A stretch of 64,000 nt of DNA, from positions 997,001-1,061,000 of the forward strand of contig NC_010718.1 in NCBI RefSeq assembly GCF_000020005.1, written 5' to 3'. The stretch is from Natranaerobius thermophilus JW/NM-WN-LF (lineage in GTDB: Bacteria > Bacillota > Natranaerobiia > Natranaerobiales > Natranaerobiaceae). Below are positions 2,532 to 57,804 of the stretch, piece by piece; the stretch's first letter is position 1, and each line of letters opens with the position of its first letter. The position numbers and the translations under genes are program-made. The notes below the pieces were generated by a model that did not search any database, was not told where the DNA came from, and saw only the letters and a list, made by a program, of their open reading frames with translations.

Positions 2532-3623
2532 ATTAACTCTCATGGTGGACAAGTATGGCGTTGGCAACGAGAATTTAATTTAAATCCCAAAGAGATTATT
2601 GACTTTAGTGCTAATATTAACCCACTGGGGCCCCCTAAGGAAATTATTAATCAGCTAAGTTCACAGTTGGATGCATTGCAGCATTATCCAGAGCCTTATG
2701 GAATCAGTCTTAAACAAATTATAGCTGAACATCACGGAGTTTTGCCTGAACAGGTGATTGTAGGAAATGGAGCCAGTGAATTGATTGACTTAATTATCCT
2801 TCATAGGCTAGTGAAAAGTGATAATATTAATGAACATTTAACTGCTTTAATTCCCGAGCCTAATTTTAGTGAGTACAAGCGGGGAGTCCAGGCTTTGAGA
2901 GGGAAAGTTAATAGCTTTACTACTTTGTCATTAAATAATGATTTAAGCTATATGAAAACAAAAATGATGGAGATGCGACCACAGCTGCTATTTTTGTCGT
3001 CTCCCAACAATCCTACCGGTGAACTTATCAATAATTATACTTTGAAAAATATTGTCCAATCCATGGAGCAATGGGATGGAGAGCTTATTTTAGATTATTC
3101 TTTTCTTCCCTTTGTCAAGTCTTCTTGGCCAAAAGCCAGTTTAGAGGAGATAAACTTTGATCAAACATTTTTATTATTTTCTCTAACTAAGATGTTTGCC
3201 CTTCCGGGACTTAGATTAGGTTATGGAATTACGAGTCAAGAGAAGATATGGCAATTGGAAAAGTTAAGAAATCAATGGGCGGTTAATTCACTGGCACAGA
3301 CAGCCTTTAAAGAGTGCTTTAGTTTACAAAACTATGAAAACAAAACTAGAAAGTTAATTCATAGCGAACGGGAAAGATTACGAGCAGAGCTGGAGTTTCT
3401 AGGATTTAGCACCTTTAAGTCTTCAGCTAATTTTTTACTAATTAAAAACAATAATTTTCCAGGTACTGTCAAGAACCTCTGGCATCATCTTGCCTGTAAG
3501 GGAATATTCATTCGGCTTTGTGAGAATTTCCAAGGACTTGATGAATCATATTTTAGGATAGCCATTAGATTACCTGAAGAAAATGACCGCTTTCTTGAGG
3601 AACTTAGCAGTTTTACACCTTAG
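2532..3623 (+). CDS. cobD: Threonine-phosphate decarboxylase (CobD/CobC type), probable ATT start
   Basis: This PLP enzyme of the class I/II aminotransferase fold is predicted to decarboxylate L-threonine phosphate to aminopropanol phosphate. Family features are NSHGGQVW near the N-terminus, DFSANINPLGPP, SSPNNPTGE and the PLP-binding lysine in FSLTKMFALPGLRLGYG (about residue 220). The conserved N-terminal HGG and DFSANINPLGPP stretches lie upstream of every ATG, GTG or TTG in the frame. After the in-frame TGA at 2523 the only initiator-like codons are ATC 2529 and ATT 2532. A strong GGAGGTGAT (2518-2526) points to ATT 2532, giving about 363 residues. A start at TTG 2667 would remove 45 conserved residues. 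It overlaps the end of the kinase unit closely. Confidence 0.85.
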   Translation: MNSHGGQVWRWQREFNLNPKEIIDFSANINPLGPPKEIINQLSSQLDALQHYPEPYGISLKQIIAEHHGVLPEQVIVGNGASELIDLIILHRLVKSDNINEHLTALIPEPNFSEYKRGVQALRGKVNSFTTLSLNNDLSYMKTKMMEMRPQLLFLSSPNNPTGELINNYTLKNIVQSMEQWDGELILDYSFLPFVKSSWPKASLEEINFDQTFLLFSLTKMFALPGLRLGYGITSQEKIWQLEKLRNQWAVNSLAQTAFKECFSLQNYENKTRKLIHSERERLRAELEFLGFSTFKSSANFLLIKNNNFPGTVKNLWHHLACKGIFIRLCENFQGLDESYFRIAIRLPEENDRFLEELSSFTP

Positions 3624-3628
3624 TTTTA

Positions 3629-3763
3629 GGCTCTTTTATACTCCGTTGTTGATAGATTAACTCTTCGATTGAACGAATTTTGTGTAGAGTTAGTTGTAAC
3701 AACCCGAAACATTGGATGTGAAATTGAAGAGTTCAACTATCAACATTCAACTTTAACATAGCC
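3629..3763 (+). repeat. Palindromic element copy A (short 135-bp form)
   Basis: The arms GGCTCTTTTATACTCCGTTG and its counterpart ending ...AACTTTAACATAGCC match the outer arms of the 253-255-bp copies at 14545, 26636 and 57517. The inner palindrome is absent. The two arms are imperfect inverted repeats of each other, so the copy can fold into a single stem-loop. It lies between cobD and cbiP inside the cobalamin operon. AT-rich flanks TAGTTTTA and TAGTTTAA may be a target duplication (inference). Confidence 0.8.
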
Positions 3764-3804
3764 TAGTTTAAAGTAAATTTCTACGAGAGAAGGAGTGAGC
3801 TATT

Positions 3805-5487
3805 TTGACTAAAAATTTTATAGATAATAACTCGGCAGCAAGAAATCTGAGAGACAGAAACGTGACAGATAGAAACGTGGACGCGGCAGATAGTGACCTG
3901 GCACCATGTTTAATGCTTCAGGGGACCTCATCCCATGTAGGTAAAAGTGTCTTGGTTACTGCTTTTTGCAGAATTTTTTCTCGCCTAGGATATCGGATTG
4001 CACCATTTAAGGCTCAAAATATGGCAAATAATTCTTACGTAACCCCACAGGGTTATGAAATAGGTCGGGCTCAAGGTATACAAGCGGAAGCTGCTCAGAG
4101 ACAAGCAAATACCAATATGAACCCGGTATTGTTGAAGCCATCTAGTGATGGAACCTCTCAAGTTGTATTGCACGGAAAACCCCGGGGTGAAGTAAAGGCC
4201 AGGGAATATAGAGAGGATTGGATAGCTTTTTTGTGGCCCCAAATCAAAACAGCCTTGTATGAACTGAGACGGGATTCGGATATGGTAATAATTGAAGGTG
4301 CTGGTAGCCCCAGTGAAATTAACTTGAGAGATGGAGATATGGCTAATATGAGTGTAGCCAAGGAAGCCTCAGCCAGGGTTCTTCTAGTAAGTGATATTGA
4401 ACGAGGAGGAATGCTGGCGTCAGTTGTTGGCACCTTAGAGCTTTTACCAGAAGATGAAAGAGATTTAGTAAAAGGGATACTGGTTAATAAATTTCGTGGA
4501 GATCTATCTCTACTGCAACCCGGGTTAAAATTTTTGGAAGAAAAGACAAATAAACCTGTACTAGGAACTTTGCCATATATTAAGGAAAAATTAGTCGATG
4601 AAGAAGATTCTGTAGCACTGGAAGAAAATAAAAATACTCAGACTAACAGGACTCAAGGAAAAAACAGCCGCCCCCTTATAAAAATTGGCGTAGTAAAACT
4701 GCCACGGATTTCTAATTTTACTGATTTTGAACCATTAAAAGAACATCCTGCAGTAGAATTGCGATACCTTCCATTAGAATCGAAAGCACCTAAACTAGAT
4801 TGCTTGATCATTCCAGGTACTAAAGCTACATTGGCGGATTTACAGGAATTTGTGAATTCCACCTTATATGTTTCCTTATCAGAACAAAAACAACTAGAAA
4901 ATCTCCCTATTTTTGGAATTTGTGGTGGTTATCAAATGTTAGGATTGTCACTAAATGATGAACAAGGTATAGAAGGAAAGGCTGGAGAACTTTTAGGATT
5001 AGGGCTGTTACCTGTGGTGACTAATTTTTCCCCGGGAAAGCACACTTATAGAACAGCTCTTACGGTGAATCAAAGTGAATCTTCTAGTTCTAAAAACAGC
5101 TATACATTTGATCGTTTATTCAGTGATTTAAAGGGAACTCGACTAATAGGATACGAAATCCACATGGGGGAAACTGAACCGGTTGAACCCGGATATAGCT
5201 GGCTTATCGACGAGAATAATCAACCGAAAGGCACATTTTCTCAAAACGGGCGTGTAATGGGAACTTTTTTACATGGTATTTTTAATAATAATTCATTCAC
5301 TAATTGGTTTCTTTCCTGGGTTGTTTTATGGAATGAATGTGGATCTTCCCAGGATTTTTTGCAGAAAAATGAAGGGTATTTGAGTGATATGGAGAAATTT
5401 AATATATTGGCAGACCATGTAGAATCTGCTCTGGATATGGGATATATATCTAAAATGTTAAATTGCAATTTGCAATGTAAAAATTAA
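3805..5487 (+). CDS. cbiP: Cobyric acid synthase CbiP/CobQ
   Basis: This glutamine-dependent enzyme amidates four side chains of adenosylcobyrinic acid diamide to form cobyric acid. The 560-residue protein starts at TTG 3805 after AAGGAGTGAG. Residues 1-33 are a charged, repetitive extension (RNLRDRNVTDRNV). The dethiobiotin-synthetase-like ATPase part begins with LQGTSSHVGKS at 39-48, followed by PFKAQNMANNSYV and EGAGSPSEINLRDGD. The C-terminal class I glutamine amidotransferase has its nucleophile in FGICGGYQMLG (Cys about 373) and the catalytic His in FLHGIF (about 490). It closes the visible cobalamin operon, although repeat copy A separates it from cobD. Confidence 0.95.
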   Translation: MTKNFIDNNSAARNLRDRNVTDRNVDAADSDLAPCLMLQGTSSHVGKSVLVTAFCRIFSRLGYRIAPFKAQNMANNSYVTPQGYEIGRAQGIQAEAAQRQANTNMNPVLLKPSSDGTSQVVLHGKPRGEVKAREYREDWIAFLWPQIKTALYELRRDSDMVIIEGAGSPSEINLRDGDMANMSVAKEASARVLLVSDIERGGMLASVVGTLELLPEDERDLVKGILVNKFRGDLSLLQPGLKFLEEKTNKPVLGTLPYIKEKLVDEEDSVALEENKNTQTNRTQGKNSRPLIKIGVVKLPRISNFTDFEPLKEHPAVELRYLPLESKAPKLDCLIIPGTKATLADLQEFVNSTLYVSLSEQKQLENLPIFGICGGYQMLGLSLNDEQGIEGKAGELLGLGLLPVVTNFSPGKHTYRTALTVNQSESSSSKNSYTFDRLFSDLKGTRLIGYEIHMGETEPVEPGYSWLIDENNQPKGTFSQNGRVMGTFLHGIFNNNSFTNWFLSWVVLWNECGSSQDFLQKNEGYLSDMEKFNILADHVESALDMGYISKMLNCNLQCKN

Positions 5488-14540: not shown

Positions 14541-14544
14541 AAAA

Positions 14545-14799
14545 GTTGTGTTAAAGTTGAATGTTGATAGTTGAGCTCTTCAATTTCACATCAAATGTTT
14601 TGGGTTGGTACATCTAAAACTCCCCAACAGTAGAATTAAAGATTCCTGATCAGCTGCTCATCTTAGAGCATAATCAGCAAATAACATCCTGTTATTTGAC
14701 TTTAATTCTACTGTTGGATCGTTAAGATATAATATCAACCTTACACAAAATTCGTTCAATCGAAAAGTTCAACTATCAACAACGGAGTATAAAAGAGCC
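14545..14799 (-). repeat. Palindromic element copy B (full-length 255-bp form)
   Basis: It is almost identical to copies C (26636) and D (57517), and inverted relative to C. The outer arms run GTTGTGTTAAAGTTGAATG... to ...CGGAGTATAAAAGAGCC. The inner arms CAACAGTAGAATTAAAG and CTTTAATTCTACTGTTG frame two small hairpins. The flanks TTTTTTAAAA and TTTTTAAAA could be a target duplication or a terminator coincidence. Confidence 0.85.
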
Positions 14800-22216: not shown

Positions 22217-24109
22217 ATGTGTGGGTTTGTTTGTTATATACCTAAAAAAGAAAAAGGTAATTTGTATAGTAAAAACATGAAAATAAAAATTCAGAATAAG
22301 GTGAAAGATGCCGCAGAAGTTATAAGTCATAGAGGCCCAGATGATAGTGGTTATTATAGCGATAAAAATATTTCTTTAGGGTTTAAACGACTAAGTATTA
22401 TTGACTTGGAAGGCGGGAAGCAACCACTATCTTATTTTAATAACCGTTACCAAATAGTTTTTAATGGGGAAATTTACAATTACCTAGAATTAAGAAATGA
22501 ATTAATCAATACTGGAGTTAATTTAAACACAGAATCAGATACTGAAATTATTGTTGCTTTATATCATCAGCATGGTTCTGAAATAGCTCATAAATTAAGG
22601 GGTATGTTTTCTTTTATTATTTGGGATTCAAAGCTAAAGAAACTGTTTGGTGCTAGAGACTATTTTGGTATAAAGCCGTTGTATTATTCAGACCATGATG
22701 AGTTTATAGTATTTTGTTCAGAGAAAAAAGCGTTGTTACAATTTATAGAAACTGACCTGGATTACGAGACTTTACAACATTATCTTACTTATCAGTATCC
22801 CCCGGAACCTAATACAATGGATAAAAACATTAAAAAAATACCGCCAGGTACTTGCTTTTACTATGATACCAAAAGTCAATCTGAGTGTTTATCTTTAAAT
22901 AAATATTTCAGTCTAAAACTCAATCCTAATAAAAACTACATCAATCAAGAAGAAAAGTTGGTTAGTCAAGTTAAAGTTGCTTTAGAAAAATCTGTTAAAT
23001 TGCATATGAGAAGTGATGTTCCAGTAGGTGCCTTTTTATCAAGTGGTATAGATTCTACTGGTATAGTAGCTTTAGCTAAAAAGATTCATCCAGATATCAA
23101 AACTTTTACGAGTGGATTTTCAAGAGAAGGTTATAATGAAGCTGATATAGCTAAAGATACGGCAGAAAAAATAGGTGTGGATCATTACACTAAAACTGTA
23201 ACTGCGGAAGATATTATGAGAGACTTGCCAACAATAATTTGGCATATGGATGACCCGGTTGCTGACCCCGCAGCCATTCCTTTGTATTACGTTAGTCAAG
23301 AAGCTTCAAAACAGGTTAAAGTTGTCTTATCAGGTGAAGGTGCTGATGAATTGTTTGGAGGATACAATATTTATAGAGAACCAGGGGATTTGAAAAAGTT
23401 CACTTCTTTACCAATTACCTTAAAAAAATCATTATTTTATTTAAGTCGGATTCTACCTGATGGTGTAAAAGGAAAAGAGTTTATTAGTAGAGGTATTCTT
23501 CCTATTGAAAAAAGGTATTATGGTAATGCTAGGATTTTTAAAGAGTTAGAAAAAGCTAAGTTTTATCAAAAGTTTGATTCTGGAAAAAAATTTTATGATA
23601 TTACTCAATCCTATTATAAAGAAGCTAAAAACATGGAAAGCATAGAAAAAATGCAGTATATTGACTTGAACACCTGGCTTTCCGGAGACATACTTATTAA
23701 GGCAGATAGAATGACTATGGCACATTCTTTAGAATTGCGGGTTCCCTTTTTAGATAAAAGTGTTTTTAATATTGCGAAGCAAATACCATCTGAATTTAAG
23801 GTAACTCCAGAAACTACTAAATATATTTTGAGAAAAGCTCTGGAAACCGAGATACCCGATTCTATCATAAACAGAAAAAAATTAGGATTCCCGGTTCCCA
23901 TAAGATTGTGGTTAAAAGAAGAAATGTTTTCTTGGGCAAGAACCATTATCAAAAATAGTGACACAGATTATTTATTCAACAAGCAAGCGGTATTAAAGCT
24001 ACTAGAAGATCACCGAAAAAACAAGGGAGACTATAGCCGCAAAATTTGGACTGTACTAACTTTTATGATTTGGCATAAAAATATGGTGGTAGAAAGAAAG
24101 GCTTATTAA
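22217..24109 (+). CDS. asnB: Asparagine synthase (glutamine-hydrolysing), second copy
   Basis: The 630-residue protein starts MCGFVCYIP at ATG 22217 after AAAGGATGG. Only this start exposes the nucleophile Cys2 after Met removal. Glutaminase motifs are SHRGPDDSGYY, GFKRLSIID and FNGEIYNYLELR. The synthetase loop reads FLSSGIDSTGIVALA rather than the more common SGGIDSS of the neighbouring copy. LSGEGADELFGGYNIYREP and LELRVPFLDKSVF follow. It diverges strongly in sequence from the first copy, so it is not a recent duplication. It may serve a different amide transfer or a different nitrogen condition. Genes for glutamine synthetase and an ANTAR regulator follow on the same strand. Confidence 0.92.
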   Translation: MCGFVCYIPKKEKGNLYSKNMKIKIQNKVKDAAEVISHRGPDDSGYYSDKNISLGFKRLSIIDLEGGKQPLSYFNNRYQIVFNGEIYNYLELRNELINTGVNLNTESDTEIIVALYHQHGSEIAHKLRGMFSFIIWDSKLKKLFGARDYFGIKPLYYSDHDEFIVFCSEKKALLQFIETDLDYETLQHYLTYQYPPEPNTMDKNIKKIPPGTCFYYDTKSQSECLSLNKYFSLKLNPNKNYINQEEKLVSQVKVALEKSVKLHMRSDVPVGAFLSSGIDSTGIVALAKKIHPDIKTFTSGFSREGYNEADIAKDTAEKIGVDHYTKTVTAEDIMRDLPTIIWHMDDPVADPAAIPLYYVSQEASKQVKVVLSGEGADELFGGYNIYREPGDLKKFTSLPITLKKSLFYLSRILPDGVKGKEFISRGILPIEKRYYGNARIFKELEKAKFYQKFDSGKKFYDITQSYYKEAKNMESIEKMQYIDLNTWLSGDILIKADRMTMAHSLELRVPFLDKSVFNIAKQIPSEFKVTPETTKYILRKALETEIPDSIINRKKLGFPVPIRLWLKEEMFSWARTIIKNSDTDYLFNKQAVLKLLEDHRKNKGDYSRKIWTVLTFMIWHKNMVVERKAY

Positions 24110-24200
24110 TTGGTTAAGCAGATTTAATAAATTACTTTATTAATAATCACATCTTATAGTAAATAATTATAATATATAGCAACTAAAATTTATAAACTTT

Positions 24201-24238
24201 GAGTGCAAAGGTGTACTCTAGTGAGCAAAGGCGTTCAC
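24201..24238 (+). promoter_or_regulatory. Tandem hexaloop RNA hairpins: ANTAR-protein target
   Basis: Hairpin P1 (24201-24218) is GAGTGC-AAAGGT-GTACTC. Hairpin P2 (24221-24238) is GTGAGC-AAAGGC-GTTCAC. Each has six paired positions (including one G-U) and a six-base loop with A at position 1 and G at position 4. That is the established signature of RNAs bound by dimeric ANTAR antiterminators. A two-base linker separates the hairpins. The ANTAR gene lies downstream at 25709. Confidence 0.85.
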
Positions 24239-24294
24239 TTGTACAGTTGTATTATATTAATACGACTGTACTAGGGACGCCTTAAATTATTTTA
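24228..24294 (+). terminator. Attenuator hairpin competing with ANTAR hairpin P2
   Basis: AAGGCGT (24228-24234, the loop and 3' arm of P2) can pair with ACGCCTT (24277-24283). Inside that, GTACAGTTGTATT pairs with AATACGACTGTAC. The tail AAATTATTTTA is moderately T-rich. P2 and this hairpin cannot form together, the standard layout for ANTAR antitermination. Confidence 0.75.
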
Positions 24295-24320
24295 TAGAAA
24301 TTATCAGGAGGTATATGAAC

Positions 24321-25658
24321 ATGTGTAAATTTACTAAAGAAGATGTTTTGAAAATGGCAAAAGAGCAAAACGTGAAATTTATTAGGTTGCAATTTACTGA
24401 CATTTTTGGAATTATGAAAAATGTTGCAATTCCAGTAAGTCAGCTAGAAAAAGCTTTGGATGGGGAAATGATGTTTGATGGATCCTCAGTTGAAGGTTTT
24501 GTTAGAATCGAAGAAAGCGATATGTATTTACAACCAGATCCGAATACATTTATAACTTTCCCTTGGAGATCAGGAATTGATGGGGATGTAGGAAGGTTGA
24601 TTTGTGATGTTTATGATTCTACAGAAGGGAAGCCATTTGCAGGTTGCCCTAGAAGTGTGCTTAGAAGTTTGGTTGATAAGGCAGTCCAAAAGGGGTATAC
24701 TTTGAACGCAGGTCCAGAAGCTGAATTTTTCTTATTTTTAACTGATAGTGAAGGTCGACCAACTACCATCACTCATGATAAAGCCGGATATTTTGATTTA
24801 TCACCTGTAGACCTGGGTGAAGGTGCAAGAAGAGACATGGTTACTACTCTTCAAAAAATGGGATATGAGATTGAAGCATCTCATCACGAAGTGGCACCAG
24901 GACAGCACGAAATTGACTTTCAGTATTCAGATGCTCTGGATATTGCTGATAAAATAGTCACATTTAAATTGGTTGTAAGAAGTATAGCACAACGACATGG
25001 CCTTCATGCTACTTTTATGCCGAAACCAATTCAGGGTATAAATGGTTCAGGTATGCATATTAATTTATCATTGTTTAAAAATGGAGGGAACACTTTTTAT
25101 GATCCACAAAAAGAAAATGGTTTAAGTGACGTAGCCGTTAATTTTGTTGGTGGTCTGCTAAAGCACGGAAAGGCCATTACTGCAATTACAAATCCAACTG
25201 TCAATTCCTATAAAAGATTAGTGCCTGGCTATGAAGCACCGGTTAATATGGCATGGTCATTTAGAAACAGAAGTCCGCTAATTAGAATTCCTGGTAAGAG
25301 GGGTTCGTCAACAAGAACTGAGTTACGAAGCCCTGATCCTTCTTTTAATCCTTACTTATCTTTAGCAGCGATTTTAGCAGCTGGTTTAGACGGTGTTGAA
25401 AATCAAATCGATCCCCCTGCACCTGTTGATAGAAATATTTATGATATGACTGAAGAAAGCTTAGAAGAACTACAAATTGATCAATTACCAGAAACTTTAG
25501 AAAAAGCAATTAATCATTTAGAGGAAGATGAATTGATTAAAAATGCTTTAGGTGAACATGTTTGCGAGAAATTCATTGAAGCCAAAAAAATTGAATGGAA
25601 AAATTACATGTCAGCAGTTCACCAGTGGGAGCTAGACGAATATTTAACAAAATTTTAG
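24321..25658 (+). CDS. glnA: Glutamine synthetase type I, second copy (ANTAR-attenuated)
   Basis: The 445-residue protein has GSI-alpha motifs: [70 protein letters not shown] and [15 protein letters not shown]. It is clearly related to, but distinct from, the copy at 11449. AGGAGGT (24306-24312) is only two bases from the ATG at 24315 but eight from the ATG at 24321, so the latter (MCKFTKEDV) is the likely start. The leader holds an ANTAR-type double hairpin and attenuator, and the ANTAR gene follows 50 bp after the stop. Expression is therefore probably induced by a nitrogen-related signal through antitermination. Confidence 0.94.
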
Positions 25659-25708
25659 TATATAAATTAGAGTCTATTTCATGAAATCTTAGGGATGGAG
25701 TGGTTACA

Positions 25709-26284
25709 GTGCCTGAGGCGAATGTAGTAGTTGCCTCCGGAGAAACTGAGTATAGGAAACACTTAAAAAGTACGCTAATGCAGTGTGGGTATAAGTTGGT
25801 TGGTGAGAGTGATAATATGGATGCCACTTTACGCCTATATCATAGGCTGATTCCTCGATTAATTATAGCCGATATTGATAATATAGATTTTGATGTGATT
25901 GGTCTACTGAATGTGATAGAGCCTGTTGGTGAAACAGCTATAGTTATCCTAACAAGTAATATTCAACAACAACTATTGTCTATGGCTAAAGAATCATGGA
26001 TTCTTACTCCGATTATGAAACCTGTCAATAAGCAGGCATTGATTGCTTATTTAGAAATTGCCATGGCTAATTTCGAGCGATATCAAAAACTACAATCTGA
26101 ACTAAACAATTTAAAAGATGATTTAGAGACTAGAAAGTTAGTTGATCGAGCTAAAAATATACTGATGAAGAAGAAAAAGATGACTGAAGCGGAAGCCTTT
26201 AGAAGTATTCAAAAAAAGAGTATGGATAATTCAATCCCTATGAAAAAAGTAGCTGAATCTATTATTATTACGAATGATTTTTAA
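25709..26284 (+). CDS. ANTAR-domain response regulator (transcription antiterminator)
   Basis: The 191-residue protein has an N-terminal receiver-like domain (about 1-118), a coiled coil (about 122-145) and a C-terminal ANTAR RNA-binding domain (about 137-187). The last shows LVDRAKNILMKKKKMTEAEAF and the aromatic-poor tail MKKVAESIII. The receiver keeps Asp55 (LIIADID), Thr82 and Lys104, but the N-terminal acidic pair is replaced by ASGE. Mg-dependent phosphorylation may therefore be altered. GTG 25709 is preceded by GGAG. It lies directly behind the second glutamine synthetase, whose leader has the cognate type of RNA target. No sensor kinase is adjacent. Confidence 0.9.
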   Translation: MPEANVVVASGETEYRKHLKSTLMQCGYKLVGESDNMDATLRLYHRLIPRLIIADIDNIDFDVIGLLNVIEPVGETAIVILTSNIQQQLLSMAKESWILTPIMKPVNKQALIAYLEIAMANFERYQKLQSELNNLKDDLETRKLVDRAKNILMKKKKMTEAEAFRSIQKKSMDNSIPMKKVAESIIITNDF

Positions 26285-26478: not shown

Positions 26479-26527
26479 TAAGCGGCCCCAGCTCGATTTT
26501 TAGAGCTAAGGCCGCTTAATCTTTTTT
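26479..26527 (+). terminator. Rho-independent terminator after the glnA-ANTAR unit
   Basis: TAAGCGGCC and GGCCGCTTA form the outer stem, AGCTC and GAGCT an inner stem, followed by CTTTTTT. Confidence 0.88.
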
Positions 26528-26635
26528 GCACCGTTAATTATTATAGGTTTGAGTCAATAACACGAAAAAGTTAAATAGTAAGAAGATTGCTCTTTTAAAT
26601 TGACATGTCATATCTGATCTGATACTTTAAATTTT

Positions 26636-26890
26636 GGCTCTTTTATACTCCGTTGTTGATAGTTGAACTCTTCGATTGAACGAATTTTGTGTAAGGTTGA
26701 TATTACATCTTAACGATCCAACAGTAGAATTAAAGTCAAATAACAGGATGTTATTTGCTGATCATGCTCTAGGATGAGCAGCTGATCAGGAAGCTTTAAT
26801 TCTACTGTTGGGGAGTTTTAGATGTACCAACCCGAAACATTTGATGTGAAATTGAAGAGTTCAACTATCAACATTCAACTTTAACACAGC
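26636..26890 (+). repeat. Palindromic element copy C (full-length 255-bp form, reference orientation)
   Basis: The left arm starts GGCTCTTTTATACTCCGTTG and the right arm ends CAACTTTAACACAGC. The arms are imperfect inverted repeats over about 64 bp, including GTTGATAGTTGAACTCTTC. They continue through a middle segment into perfect 18-bp inner arms CCAACAGTAGAATTAAAG and CTTTAATTCTACTGTTGG. The apex holds two separate hairpins: CAAATAACA/TGTTATTTG and CTGATCA..GCTC/GAGC..TGATCAG. It lies just upstream of the padR gene. Confidence 0.9.
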
Positions 26891-26928
26891 TTAGATTTTA
26901 ACAACTACGGGTTAGATGGAGGAATTTT

Positions 26929-39119: not shown

Positions 39120-41221
39120 GTTTGCCCGGCATGCCTGCCGCGCCGATGGGTTGAAAGAAACCCTGTCACCTAACCAGCAGGAAGACAACCATAAGGCAAG
39201 GGCGTCACCGGTGACGGTGGAGTCTGAAGGAAGCTGAAGGGGGAATTTGGAACATAGTGAGAACAAACCGAGGATGGCCTTTTAGGTGGGTAACCTTGCA
39301 AATTATGGGAAAGCCCGAAAGCTGGATAACCTAAAAGGTTAGGACGGATGCGTTCAAATTCAGGCAAGCAGACTTAACCGGGGAGATACCTGTATTGTCT
39401 TGTGACGACAAGTAAAGTTAAGACAAGTGGAAACATGAGTTTTAACTAAAGCAGTGCAGGAGGCAGATGAACCCGTAGTAGTGAAGAACTTTCGGCCAAA
39501 GAAAGCTGGTAACAGTCTGGAGGATAAAACCGAAAGGACACTACACCTGGTTGTAGTGGTGCATAATGACCGAAAGGGGAATTATGTAGTGTGAAGGGGT
39601 GAAAGTAGACCAAAGAGTGTAGCAAGAACTCGAGTAGACACTTTAGGTAGGAAGAAAACTGAAGCTGAAATGCTAAAGGGAACGGAAAGTCAGGTGGTGA
39701 CGAGCTTACTTGCTTTACCGTCCGCCTAGTGGAAGTAGAGCGTACCCTGATAGGTAAGATTGCCAAAGAGCTAGAGACACCGTTAAGCACGTTCAAAGAA
39801 ACCACAACTAAAAGTGTAGAAAGAGGGAAGGCACACAGCGAAAGAAGGTGCAATTGATGAAGAAATGGTACAGTTTAATAGACAAGATTTATTCCAAAAA
39901 GAATCTAGAAGACGCCTACCGCAGGGTCAGAGCTAACAAAGGTAAACCCGGCATAGACCAGGTAACCGTGGAGGCTTATGGCTCCAACCTAGAAGAAAAT
40001 CTGGAAACCCTTCATCATGACCTTAAAATTGGCGCATACAAACCACAACCTGTGAGGCGAGTTAAGATACCCAAACCAGATGGAAGTACTCGCCCATTAG
40101 GGATTCCAACCGTAAAAGACAGGGTAGTCCAACAAGCAACCTTAAATATACTTCAACCGATTTTTGATCCAGACTTCCACCCGTCAAGCTACGGATACAG
40201 GCCTAATCGCTCATGTCACAAAGCAATAGCTAAATCAGAACAGTTCATTAATAAATACAATCTAAGACATGTAGTAGATATGGACCTATCTAAATGCTTT
40301 GATAAATTAAACCATGAGTTGATTATCGAAGAAGTAGCCAAGAAAGTTAGTGATGGAAGTGTTCTCAAATTAATAAAGAAGTTTTTGAAGTCCGGAGTAA
40401 TGGAAGATGGAGCCATAGAAGACACAGAAATAGGGAGCCCTCAAGGTGGAGTGATATCACCACTACTAACCAACATTTACCTAGACAGATTTGATAAAGA
40501 AATGAAGAGTCGCAATATCCGAATAGTAAGATATGCCGATGATATTTTAATATTCGCCTACACACCAAGACAAGCGAAAAGATATAAAGATATAGCTACT
40601 GAAATATTAGAAGACGAATTAAAACTAACAGTTAATAAAGAGAAAACTCACATAACAAATGACCGCAAAGGTGTTCCCTACCTAGGAGTTATCATAAGGA
40701 GTCAAAACATATCCATCCAGCCTGAAAAGATACAGAAATTCAAAGAAAAAGTCAGAACTCTTACACCAAGAAATCATGGTAGAAATCTATCCGAAATCAT
40801 AAAAGAGCTAAATCCAGTATTAAGAGGATGGGCAAATTACTTCCGAATAGCCAATTGTAAGAAACAATTTGAGAACTTAATGAAATGGATTAGAAGAAGA
40901 CTTAGGATGAAGAAAATGCGAGAATGGAAAAGTTGGAAACAACTACACAAAACTCTTCGCAGAAAAGGCTACAAAGGGGAATTTGAGAAAATCTCCATGA
41001 ATAAATGGAGAAACTCATCAAGTCCTCTCATAAGTTTAGCACTACCCAATAAGTGGTTTGACGAGATAGGTCTAATTAATATTAGTACCTATCAAGTTGG
41101 TATTTTGCATCACTTTAGAAAGTGATCGAGGTCTACTAGGAGCCGTGTACGTGGCCCGTAAGCACGGTTCTGTGAGAGGAACGAAGCCACAGCTAATTAC
41201 TGTGGCTTCTACCTACTCGAT
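39120..41221 (+). mobile_element. Group II intron 1 (about 2.1 kb) with its maturase/reverse transcriptase
   Basis: The 5' end reads GTTTGCCCGGCATG and is followed by typical domain I text such as GGAGTCTGAAGGAAGC at 39220-39235. The reverse-transcriptase frame occupies domain IV. Domain V is 41140-41170 (GAGCCGTG...CACGGTTC). Domain VI is the hairpin GAAGCCACAG/CTGTGGCTTC (41183-41209), and the intron ends ...CTACTCGAT at about 41221. The 5' exon is the lgt terminator T-tract. Boundaries are accurate to a few bases. The orientation is the same as lgt. Insertion behind a terminator is characteristic of bacterial class C (IIC) introns, but the maturase differs clearly from that of intron 2. 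Confidence 0.85.
39857..41125 (+). CDS. ltrA: Group II intron 1 reverse transcriptase/maturase
   Basis: The 422-residue protein supports splicing and reverse splicing of its host intron. RT blocks visible are RANKGKPGIDQVTVE (RT0/1), RPLGIPTVKDRVVQQA, SYGYRPNRSCHKAI, VVDMDLSKCFDKLNHELI, GSPQGGVISPLLTNIYLD and the catalytic VRYADDILIF. Then comes the maturase X domain with LRGWANYFRIAN and a basic C-terminus. There is no HNH endonuclease domain, as in IIC and some other lineages. ATG 39857 follows AAGGTG. The catalytic YADD is intact, so it may be active. Confidence 0.92.
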   Translation: MKKWYSLIDKIYSKKNLEDAYRRVRANKGKPGIDQVTVEAYGSNLEENLETLHHDLKIGAYKPQPVRRVKIPKPDGSTRPLGIPTVKDRVVQQATLNILQPIFDPDFHPSSYGYRPNRSCHKAIAKSEQFINKYNLRHVVDMDLSKCFDKLNHELIIEEVAKKVSDGSVLKLIKKFLKSGVMEDGAIEDTEIGSPQGGVISPLLTNIYLDRFDKEMKSRNIRIVRYADDILIFAYTPRQAKRYKDIATEILEDELKLTVNKEKTHITNDRKGVPYLGVIIRSQNISIQPEKIQKFKEKVRTLTPRNHGRNLSEIIKELNPVLRGWANYFRIANCKKQFENLMKWIRRRLRMKKMREWKSWKQLHKTLRRKGYKGEFEKISMNKWRNSSSPLISLALPNKWFDEIGLINISTYQVGILHHFRK

Positions 41222-41225
41222 TATT

Positions 41226-43140
41226 GTGCGCCATGCATGACGATTAGCTAGGTGGTGTAAGTCCACTATGGGGGTTTGTAGTTACCAACCATTAGCCAAG
41301 AGCAAGGGTGCCCATCGTGAGGTGGGATCTGAAGGAAGCTTAAGGCAAAATTCCGACCCAAGGCACACGAACATCATCAGGCATAAGGTATGGGATGAGT
41401 TTGCAATACAAAACGAAGTCCAATCAACTACACGGACATACCAGTGTAAATGATGTGGGTACATGGAATGAAAGTTAATCGTCTTACCGTGGGAGGTCTC
41501 ATGGACGTGGCAAGATGAACTTCGAACCACGGTTGAAATAAGATTTGTCATGAGAAGTCAGCAGACTCCATAGTACTTGATGAGGTCGACATCATTAAGG
41601 AAGGGATGAACCTAGGAGGAGATCAGTAAATGACTGTTACCAATAAAGGAATGAAGTGCCGCCAACTTCTGACAGGCGAAAGCTGCAAAGAAGGCTCACC
41701 GCAGAAGAATAGTGCGGAACACGAAGGATATGCGGGAGTGCACAGTTCTTTAAGGATAACTGAAAACAACATCTCCAATGCAAACTTGTCGAAGGGGAAT
41801 TTGCTAGAGGAAATTTTGGATAGAGACAACATGAATAAAGCATTCAAGAAAATAAAATCCAACAAAGGCTCTCACGGGATTGATGGGATGGGAGTAGATG
41901 AACTTCTACAATATCTCAAAGAAAACGGGGACCACCTCAGGCAAAGAGTCCTGGACGGTAAATACCGCCCTAATCCCGTCAGAAGGGTAGAGATACCTAA
42001 AGAAGATGGGAAGAAAAGAAAATTAGGCATACCTACAGTGGTAGACAGGGTAATCCAACAAGCAATAGCCCAAGTACTATCTCCAATATATGAGGAGCAA
42101 TTCTCAGATAACAGCTATGGTTTTCGCCCTGGACGCAGTACTCATGATGCAATTAAGAAAAGTCAACAAAACATAAATGAAGGATACAAATATGTAGTAG
42201 ATATGGACTTGGAGAAATACTTTGACACAGTAAACCAGAGCAAATTGATAGAAGTGCTATCTAAGACAATAAAAGACGGTCGAGTAATATCTCTTATCAA
42301 CAAATATCTAAGAGCAGGAGTAATGATCAAACACACCTATAAGGATACAGAAGTTGGCGTGCCCCAGGGCGGGCCTCTTAGCCCTATCCTCAGTAACATA
42401 ATGCTCCACGAATTGGATAAAGAACTTGAGAAAAGGGGGCACGAATTCGTCCGCTATGCGGACGACCTGCTAATCTTTTGTAAAAGCAGAAGAAGTGCCG
42501 GACGCACCTTGAAGAACATACTACCCTTCATCGAAAATAAACTATTTCTCAAAGTAAATAAAGATAAAACTGTAGTTGCCTATGTAGGAAAGGTAAGATT
42601 TCTTGGGTTTGGCTTTTACAGACATAAAGGAAAAGCCAGATTAAGAGTTCATCTTAAATCAGTTACAAAGATGAGAACGAGAATAAAAGAACTCACATCT
42701 AGAAGTTATGGAATAAGCAACGAAGCCAGAGCAAAGAAACTTAGCCGATACATTATGGGTTGGGTTAACTACTTTAAACCAGCTGATATGAAGAATCTGT
42801 TAATAAATACTGACAGTTGGATGAGAAGGCGTATTCGCATGATTTACTGGAAACAATGGAAGAAAGTGAGAACAAAATTTAAAATGCTCAAGTTCTTTGG
42901 AGCCAATAAATACAAAGCATGGGAATATGCAAACACAAGAAAGGGCTACTGGAGAATTTCCAATAGCCCCGTCTTATCCAAATCCCTTGGAAATGATGTA
43001 ATCAAAGGATTTGGTTTCCTATTCTTTTCGGAATATTATCGACAAGTTAAAGCGTAAACTAGGAACCGCCGTGTACCGAACGGTTTGCTCGGTGGTGTGA
43101 GAGGTCGGTAGATAAAATAATTATCTACCTCCTACTCGAT
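41226..43140 (+). mobile_element. Group II intron 2, IIC type (about 1.9 kb), four bases behind intron 1
   Basis: The 5' end is GTGCGCCATGCATGACG, preceded only by TATT after the end of intron 1. Domain I carries GGGATCTGAAGGAAGC and GGCACACGAACATC. Domain V (about 43063-43096) reads GAACCGCCGTGTACCGAACG..., as I remember from the Oceanobacillus iheyensis IIC intron. Domain VI is GGTAGATAA/TTATCTACC, and the intron ends CCTACTCGAT at 43140. The DV and ORF are intact. Ends are approximate to a few bases. Confidence 0.85.
41630..43057 (+). CDS. ltrA: Group II intron 2 reverse transcriptase/maturase (IIC type)
   Basis: The 475-residue protein has a charged N-terminal leader of about 60 residues. 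RT blocks follow: KSNKGSHGIDGMGVDEL, RKLGIPTVVDRVIQQAI, SYGFRPGRSTHDAI, VVDMDLEKYFDTVNQSKL, GVPQGGPLSPILSNIMLHEL and FVRYADDLLIF. The maturase segment is IMGWVNYFKPADM, with a basic DNA-binding-like tail (RMIYWKQWKKVRTKFKML) and no endonuclease. ATG 41630 follows AGGAGGAGATC. It is clearly divergent from the maturase of intron 1, so the two introns arrived independently. Confidence 0.92.
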   Translation: MTVTNKGMKCRQLLTGESCKEGSPQKNSAEHEGYAGVHSSLRITENNISNANLSKGNLLEEILDRDNMNKAFKKIKSNKGSHGIDGMGVDELLQYLKENGDHLRQRVLDGKYRPNPVRRVEIPKEDGKKRKLGIPTVVDRVIQQAIAQVLSPIYEEQFSDNSYGFRPGRSTHDAIKKSQQNINEGYKYVVDMDLEKYFDTVNQSKLIEVLSKTIKDGRVISLINKYLRAGVMIKHTYKDTEVGVPQGGPLSPILSNIMLHELDKELEKRGHEFVRYADDLLIFCKSRRSAGRTLKNILPFIENKLFLKVNKDKTVVAYVGKVRFLGFGFYRHKGKARLRVHLKSVTKMRTRIKELTSRSYGISNEARAKKLSRYIMGWVNYFKPADMKNLLINTDSWMRRRIRMIYWKQWKKVRTKFKMLKFFGANKYKAWEYANTRKGYWRISNSPVLSKSLGNDVIKGFGFLFFSEYYRQVKA

Positions 43141-57497: not shown

Positions 57498-57516
57498 TTA
57501 TATCTTTCAATATTAA

Positions 57517-57769
57517 GCTGTGTTAAAGTTGAATGTTGATAGTTGAACTCTTCGATTTCACATCAAATGTTTCGGGTTGGTACATCTAAAACTCCCCAAT
57601 AGTAGAATTAAAGCTTCCTGAACAGCTGCTCATCCTAGAGCATGATCAGAAATAACATCTTGTTATTTGACTTTAATTCTACTGTTGATCGTTAAGATGT
57701 AATATCAACCTTACACAAAATTCGTTCAATCGAAGAGATCAACTATCAACAACGGAGTATAAAAGAGCC
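57517..57769 (-). repeat. Palindromic element copy D (full-length 253-bp form)
   Basis: Same organisation and orientation as copy B: GCTGTGTTAAAGTTGAATG... to ...CGGAGTATAAAAGAGCC. The inner arms read CAATAGTAGAATTAAAG and CTTTAATTCTACTGTTG, and the small apical hairpins are present. Compared with copy C it has two short deletions and scattered substitutions. Confidence 0.88.
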
Positions 57770-57804
57770 AAATTTTAAAATGTAATAGAAATACAGTCTT
57801 ATAA

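Follow-up and report, generated by a model that had tools for sequence, protein, structure and literature searches.

Predicted ANTAR-controlled antitermination in the leader of a glutamine synthetase gene of Natranaerobius thermophilus

The glnA-ANTAR locus

The window analysed here comprises 64,000 nucleotides of the 3,165,557-bp chromosome of Natranaerobius thermophilus JW/NM-WN-LF (genome size 3.19 Mb). It encodes a type I glutamine synthetase (GlnA) and, 41 nt downstream, a receiver-ANTAR protein, while a leader with two tandem hairpins (P1 and P2) lies between glnA and the end of an asparagine synthetase gene at position 24109 (Table 1). This placement of the ANTAR gene corresponds to the adjacency expected of NitR-type systems. 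The original prediction, which was made from the sequence of the window, had placed an ANTAR regulator directly behind the "second" glutamine synthetase. The regulator is borne out by its PF03861 domain, while the numbering is correct only within the window, as this GlnA is one of three glutamine synthetases encoded in the genome, sharing 65 % and 54 % amino acid identity with the other two. No dual-hexaloop element was found when the leaders of the other two glutamine synthetase genes were read. The real start codons may lie slightly downstream of those of the predicted open reading frames, at ATG 24321 for glnA, which is preceded by a Shine-Dalgarno sequence (AGGAGG) at 24306-24311, and at GTG 25709 for the ANTAR gene.

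Mobile or repetitive sequences also occur in the window. These include a palindromic, MITE-like repeat of ~240-270 bp with no obvious gene (26626-26893, 57514-57779, 14543-14799 and 3617-3769), which recurs across the chromosome and on a second contig in several nearly complete copies (94-100 %) and in dozens of incomplete copies or ends, as well as matches to group II intron families at two places (window positions 39205-41606).

Table 1. Features of the glnA-ANTAR locus, in window coordinates
Feature	Position	Strand	Details
Predicted leader promoter	24146..24173	+	ATCACA-16-TATAAT; 10/12 consensus positions
P1 hairpin	24201..24218	+	GAGTGC[AAAGGT]GTACTC; 6 bp; hexaloop AAAGGT (A1, G4)
P2 hairpin	24220..24239	+	AGTGAGC[AAAGGC]GTTCACT; 7 bp; hexaloop AAAGGC (A1, G4)
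Terminator-like hairpin	24228..24283	+	Basal GC-rich stem AAGGCGTTC/GGACGCCTT and 14-bp upper stem
Interrupted T-tail of the terminator	24282..24296	+	TTAAATTATTTTATA; score 2.30 (relatives mostly 3-5)
glnA, type I glutamine synthetase (GS2 of three)	24315..25658	+	TIGR00653, E 5.7e-175; PF00120
Receiver-ANTAR protein	25700..26284	+	PF03861, E 1.3e-19, 70 bits (cut-off 27.3)
Likely terminator of the glnA-ANTAR operon	26480..26527	+	Hairpin of -25.3 kcal/mol, then AATCTTTTTT

The leader RNA and its relatives

The stems of P1 and P2 are perfect at every pair and both hexaloops carry A at position 1 and G at position 4, which confirms the tandem hairpins of the original prediction. The leader thus presents the tandem arrangement, A1/G4 hexaloops and stems of at least 3 bp by which ANTAR-target RNAs are recognised. 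A single nucleotide links the two full stems, and the A1-A1 distance of 20 nt falls within the working range (mostly 19-27 nt in relatives). Hairpin pairs with stems of at least 6 bp and at least 7 bp are expected 0.0067 times per shuffled 64-kb window, against one observed. The element is covered by no family in an Rfam scan.

Positions 24228-24239 are common to P2 and to the 5' arm of the terminator-like hairpin, and the two structures are thus mutually exclusive. Folding of 24227-24300 yields the latter hairpin at -33.7 kcal/mol (z = -9.0), and the minimum-energy fold of the leader combines it with P1. When P1 and P2 are enforced together, the energy is -35.5 vs -43.3 kcal/mol, a cost of 7.8 kcal/mol, which leaves the upper 14-bp stem in place. 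Folding therefore supports the exclusion that had been proposed for P2 and a hairpin at 24228-24294. The hairpin itself ends at 24283, and the proposed end point takes in the tail as well. The T-tail comprises eight T in twelve bases, with a longest run of four, and its score does not reach the cut applied and ranks with the lowest in the related-leader set. The hairpin was likewise not listed in a simple terminator scan. Given this interrupted, low-scoring and uncalled tail, the efficiency of termination is uncertain, and termination at the leader hairpin may be partial.

A covariance model (R2) was built from fifteen related elements, with the window left out. Its search of the 3.19-Mb genome returned a single match, namely this leader (33.5 bits; E 0.003; span 24201-24237), on which covariance model R1 agrees. 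Neither model provided a further match at E-values up to 10 that would indicate a wider regulon in this genome, and a loose loop pattern occurred there at background level (4+3 vs 3+3 in the reversed control). The pairs of the R2 alignment covary: 98.5 % of cells are paired and seven of the nine pairs show changes on both sides, with 31 both-sides-changed cells observed against 7.8 in shuffles, figures that have to be read in the light of many R2 seeds having been found by looking for pairing. Matches to R2 (E up to 0.01) occur in 31/299 genomes of the phylum, all of which are among the 148/299 genomes that encode an ANTAR domain (p ~6e-11). When the seed genomes are left out, ANTAR proteins are encoded in 22/22 matched genomes (p ~3e-8). 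At many of the matched loci, glnA and/or an ANTAR gene lies no more than ~1.5 kb away.

Dual hexaloops, mostly with an overlapping terminator, are present upstream of glnA in a number of relatives, and in many families of the phylum a similar ANTAR gene adjoins glnA. In 19/28 related leaders P2 is followed by a complementary terminator arm with a good T-tail, compared with 12/560 when the downstream sequence was shuffled. The order leader-glnA-ANTAR gene is retained in an order-level relative (G002, locus L053). The hexaloop hairpins of this locus (3380-3560) are 73 nt apart and separated by a stable hairpin, which may bring the two together; as EutV antitermination is lost when the linker is lengthened by 20 nt, the arrangement would represent a spacing variant. 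The nearest family member (G001) contains neither this glnA nor the ANTAR gene, which leaves no counterpart of the leader for comparison at family level. In the same genome, the orthologue of the third glutamine synthetase (L182; G001:C1, 4018-6682) carries a frame change and is split by an insertion that encodes a TnpB/transposase-like protein (4273-5322). Several relatives additionally have a dual-hexaloop leader in front of their ANTAR gene (L049 1942, L044 5949, L054 4385 and L041 5030), which points to direct autoregulation. Furthermore, a palindrome-like GTATAC/TGTATACA motif, possibly the site of a DNA-binding regulator, precedes the hexaloops of several related glnA leaders (L042, L044, L036, L038 and L050) and was not seen in the window.

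The ANTAR protein and its receiver domain

The protein encoded behind glnA is the sole ANTAR protein of the genome and resembles Rv1626 (1s8n, 1.8e-25) and EutV (6wsh, 3.6e-17). A scan of the genome collection with the ANTAR alignment returned mostly actinobacterial and Chloroflexi ANTAR proteins. Residues R145, K146, K152, E163 and M175 are identical to R142, K143, K149, E160 and M172 of EutV, while F167 replaces Y164. In EutV these residues hold the flipped G4 and contact the loop (PMC8934654). The EutV backbone contacts R168, N173, R175 and R177 correspond to Q, D, S and P, changes that are mostly common to the family. Judged by its domain and predicted RNA-contact residues, the protein belongs to the ANTAR family.

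The receiver domain, whose match falls below the Pfam cut-off, retains the Asp, Thr and Lys, but its acidic pair is replaced by S13 and G14. It consequently lacks the full set of acidic pair, phospho-Asp, Thr/Ser and Lys that is found in EutV-type response regulators. The pair is similarly missing in nearly all the relatives compared, and none of the 28 proteins aligned has Asp at the second acidic position (Glu once), a set which includes the protein of the window and a few that are not adjacent to glnA (e.g. L051). Loss of this pair makes normal phosphorylation doubtful, and the signal to the ANTAR protein is probably not relayed by a kinase. By analogy with the control of AmiR by AmiC, it can reasonably be inferred that a partner protein governs its activity. 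A more speculative and rather unlikely extension is that the glnA-linked ANTAR proteins constitute a class of antiterminators whose receiver senses the nitrogen state through protein contact instead of phosphorylation, perhaps with glutamine synthetase or PII as partner. If true, the operon would hold enzyme, sensor-regulator and RNA switch together.

Predicted mechanism and comparison with known systems

The leader is very likely a NitR/EutV-type ANTAR antitermination attenuator, because it is the only R2 match in the genome, the single ANTAR protein is encoded next door, and leader and ANTAR proteins co-occur in the phylum. The ANTAR-controlled attenuator of the original prediction is thus upheld by a model built from relatives only, by the lone neighbouring regulator and by the co-occurrence, with further support from dual hexaloops, mostly accompanied by overlapping terminators, before glnA in relatives and from the G4-contact residues shared with EutV. 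Against it stand the weak U-tract, which the original prediction does not mention, and the altered backbone-contact residues. In the proposed mechanism, RNA polymerase would start near 24180, from the predicted promoter (single promoter-like sites being weak evidence), and produce P1. Without active ANTAR protein, positions 24228-24239 of P2 would instead pair at the base of the terminator-like hairpin and transcription would stop in the U-rich stretch near 24290. Active ANTAR protein, probably as a dimer, would bind P1 and P2 at their A1/G4 hexaloops, and the bound P2 would withhold the GC-rich base of the terminator, so that the upper 14-bp hairpin could still form but would no longer abut the U-tract. 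Transcription would then continue across glnA and the ANTAR gene as a single operon, and the ANTAR protein would boost its own supply by positive autoregulation. Activation of this circuit is presumed to take place under nitrogen limitation.

Since the terminator may be too weak, the ANTAR protein could alternatively bind the dual hexaloop but act mainly on translation or RNA stability, with the long hairpin serving as a structural element or RNase barrier. The interrupted U-tract fits such a role, as does the full-leader fold, in which the Shine-Dalgarno region pairs weakly with a segment upstream of P1. Ramesh et al. (PMC3369931) likewise describe some ANTAR RNAs that lie near ribosome sites and have no terminator. 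However, clear terminators occupy the same place in most relatives of the leader, the hairpin ends ~22 nt upstream of the Shine-Dalgarno sequence, and the helix covering the latter is weak and AU-rich, which renders this explanation improbable. Relic hairpins in a leader that is constitutive or otherwise controlled, with the ANTAR protein acting on other targets, could account for the weak T-tail and for the absence of the module from G001. Yet both stems are perfect and the loops conserved, neither R1 nor R2 reveals another candidate ANTAR target in the genome, and the order-level relative retains the complete arrangement, so that this reading appears very unlikely. Least credible of all are chance hairpins before glnA with no link to ANTAR. 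The motif is short and has few fixed bases, but its rarity in shuffled sequence, the sole R2 match and the co-occurrence of RNA and ANTAR protein, taken together, make coincidence untenable, and the relatives-only model and the co-occurrence refute it in practice.

The preferred reading, antitermination by the neighbouring ANTAR protein, places the locus among several described systems. Ramesh et al. (2012; PMC3369931) defined the dual-hexaloop ANTAR RNA and its mechanism, including the EutV-eut leaders of Enterococcus faecalis, and reported RNAs of this type upstream of genes for glutamate, glutamine and ammonium, among them glutamine synthase enzymes; the accompanying perspective (PMC3369936) names glutamine synthetase. 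The present leader shares with the EutV-eut leaders two A1/G4 hexaloop hairpins and a P2 that overlaps the putative terminator, with an A1-A1 distance of 20 nt compared with 24 nt in eutP (published A29 and A53). It differs in that a single glnA operon is controlled, and the regulator, unlike EutV, lacks a phosphorylation-competent acidic pair. An ANTAR gene is similarly tied to glnA in Clostridium saccharobutylicum, where NitR is known (PMC6316151; originally Stutz et al. 2007). NitR has been proposed to antiterminate glutamine synthetase genes when nitrogen is limiting, and an antisense RNA has been reported at the glnA-nitR system (both PMC6316151, PMC4676874), while a NitR-like protein has been noted in C. 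thermocellum (PMC4676874). C. saccharobutylicum belongs to a different order of Clostridia, and no glutamate synthase genes follow in N. thermophilus. AmiR of Pseudomonas aeruginosa is likewise an ANTAR antiterminator with a receiver devoid of phosphorylation residues (PMC8934654), but AmiR is controlled by the amide sensor AmiC, and no gene for a partner of this kind was seen next to the glnA-ANTAR operon.

The glnA-ANTAR locus thus represents a new and well-supported instance of an already described nitrogen-control circuit and no new kind of system. Particular to it are the presence of a single ANTAR protein and a single leader in the genome, the 1-nt linker, the weak U-tract and the receiver without the acidic pair; what it adds to the known systems is an element serving one of three glutamine synthetases, with a weak U-tract and a regulator lacking the acidic pair. 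As a clean single-target circuit of one ANTAR protein, one leader and one operon, it offers a simple system in which to ask what signal is sensed by the glnA-linked ANTAR proteins that, unlike EutV, have no acidic pair.
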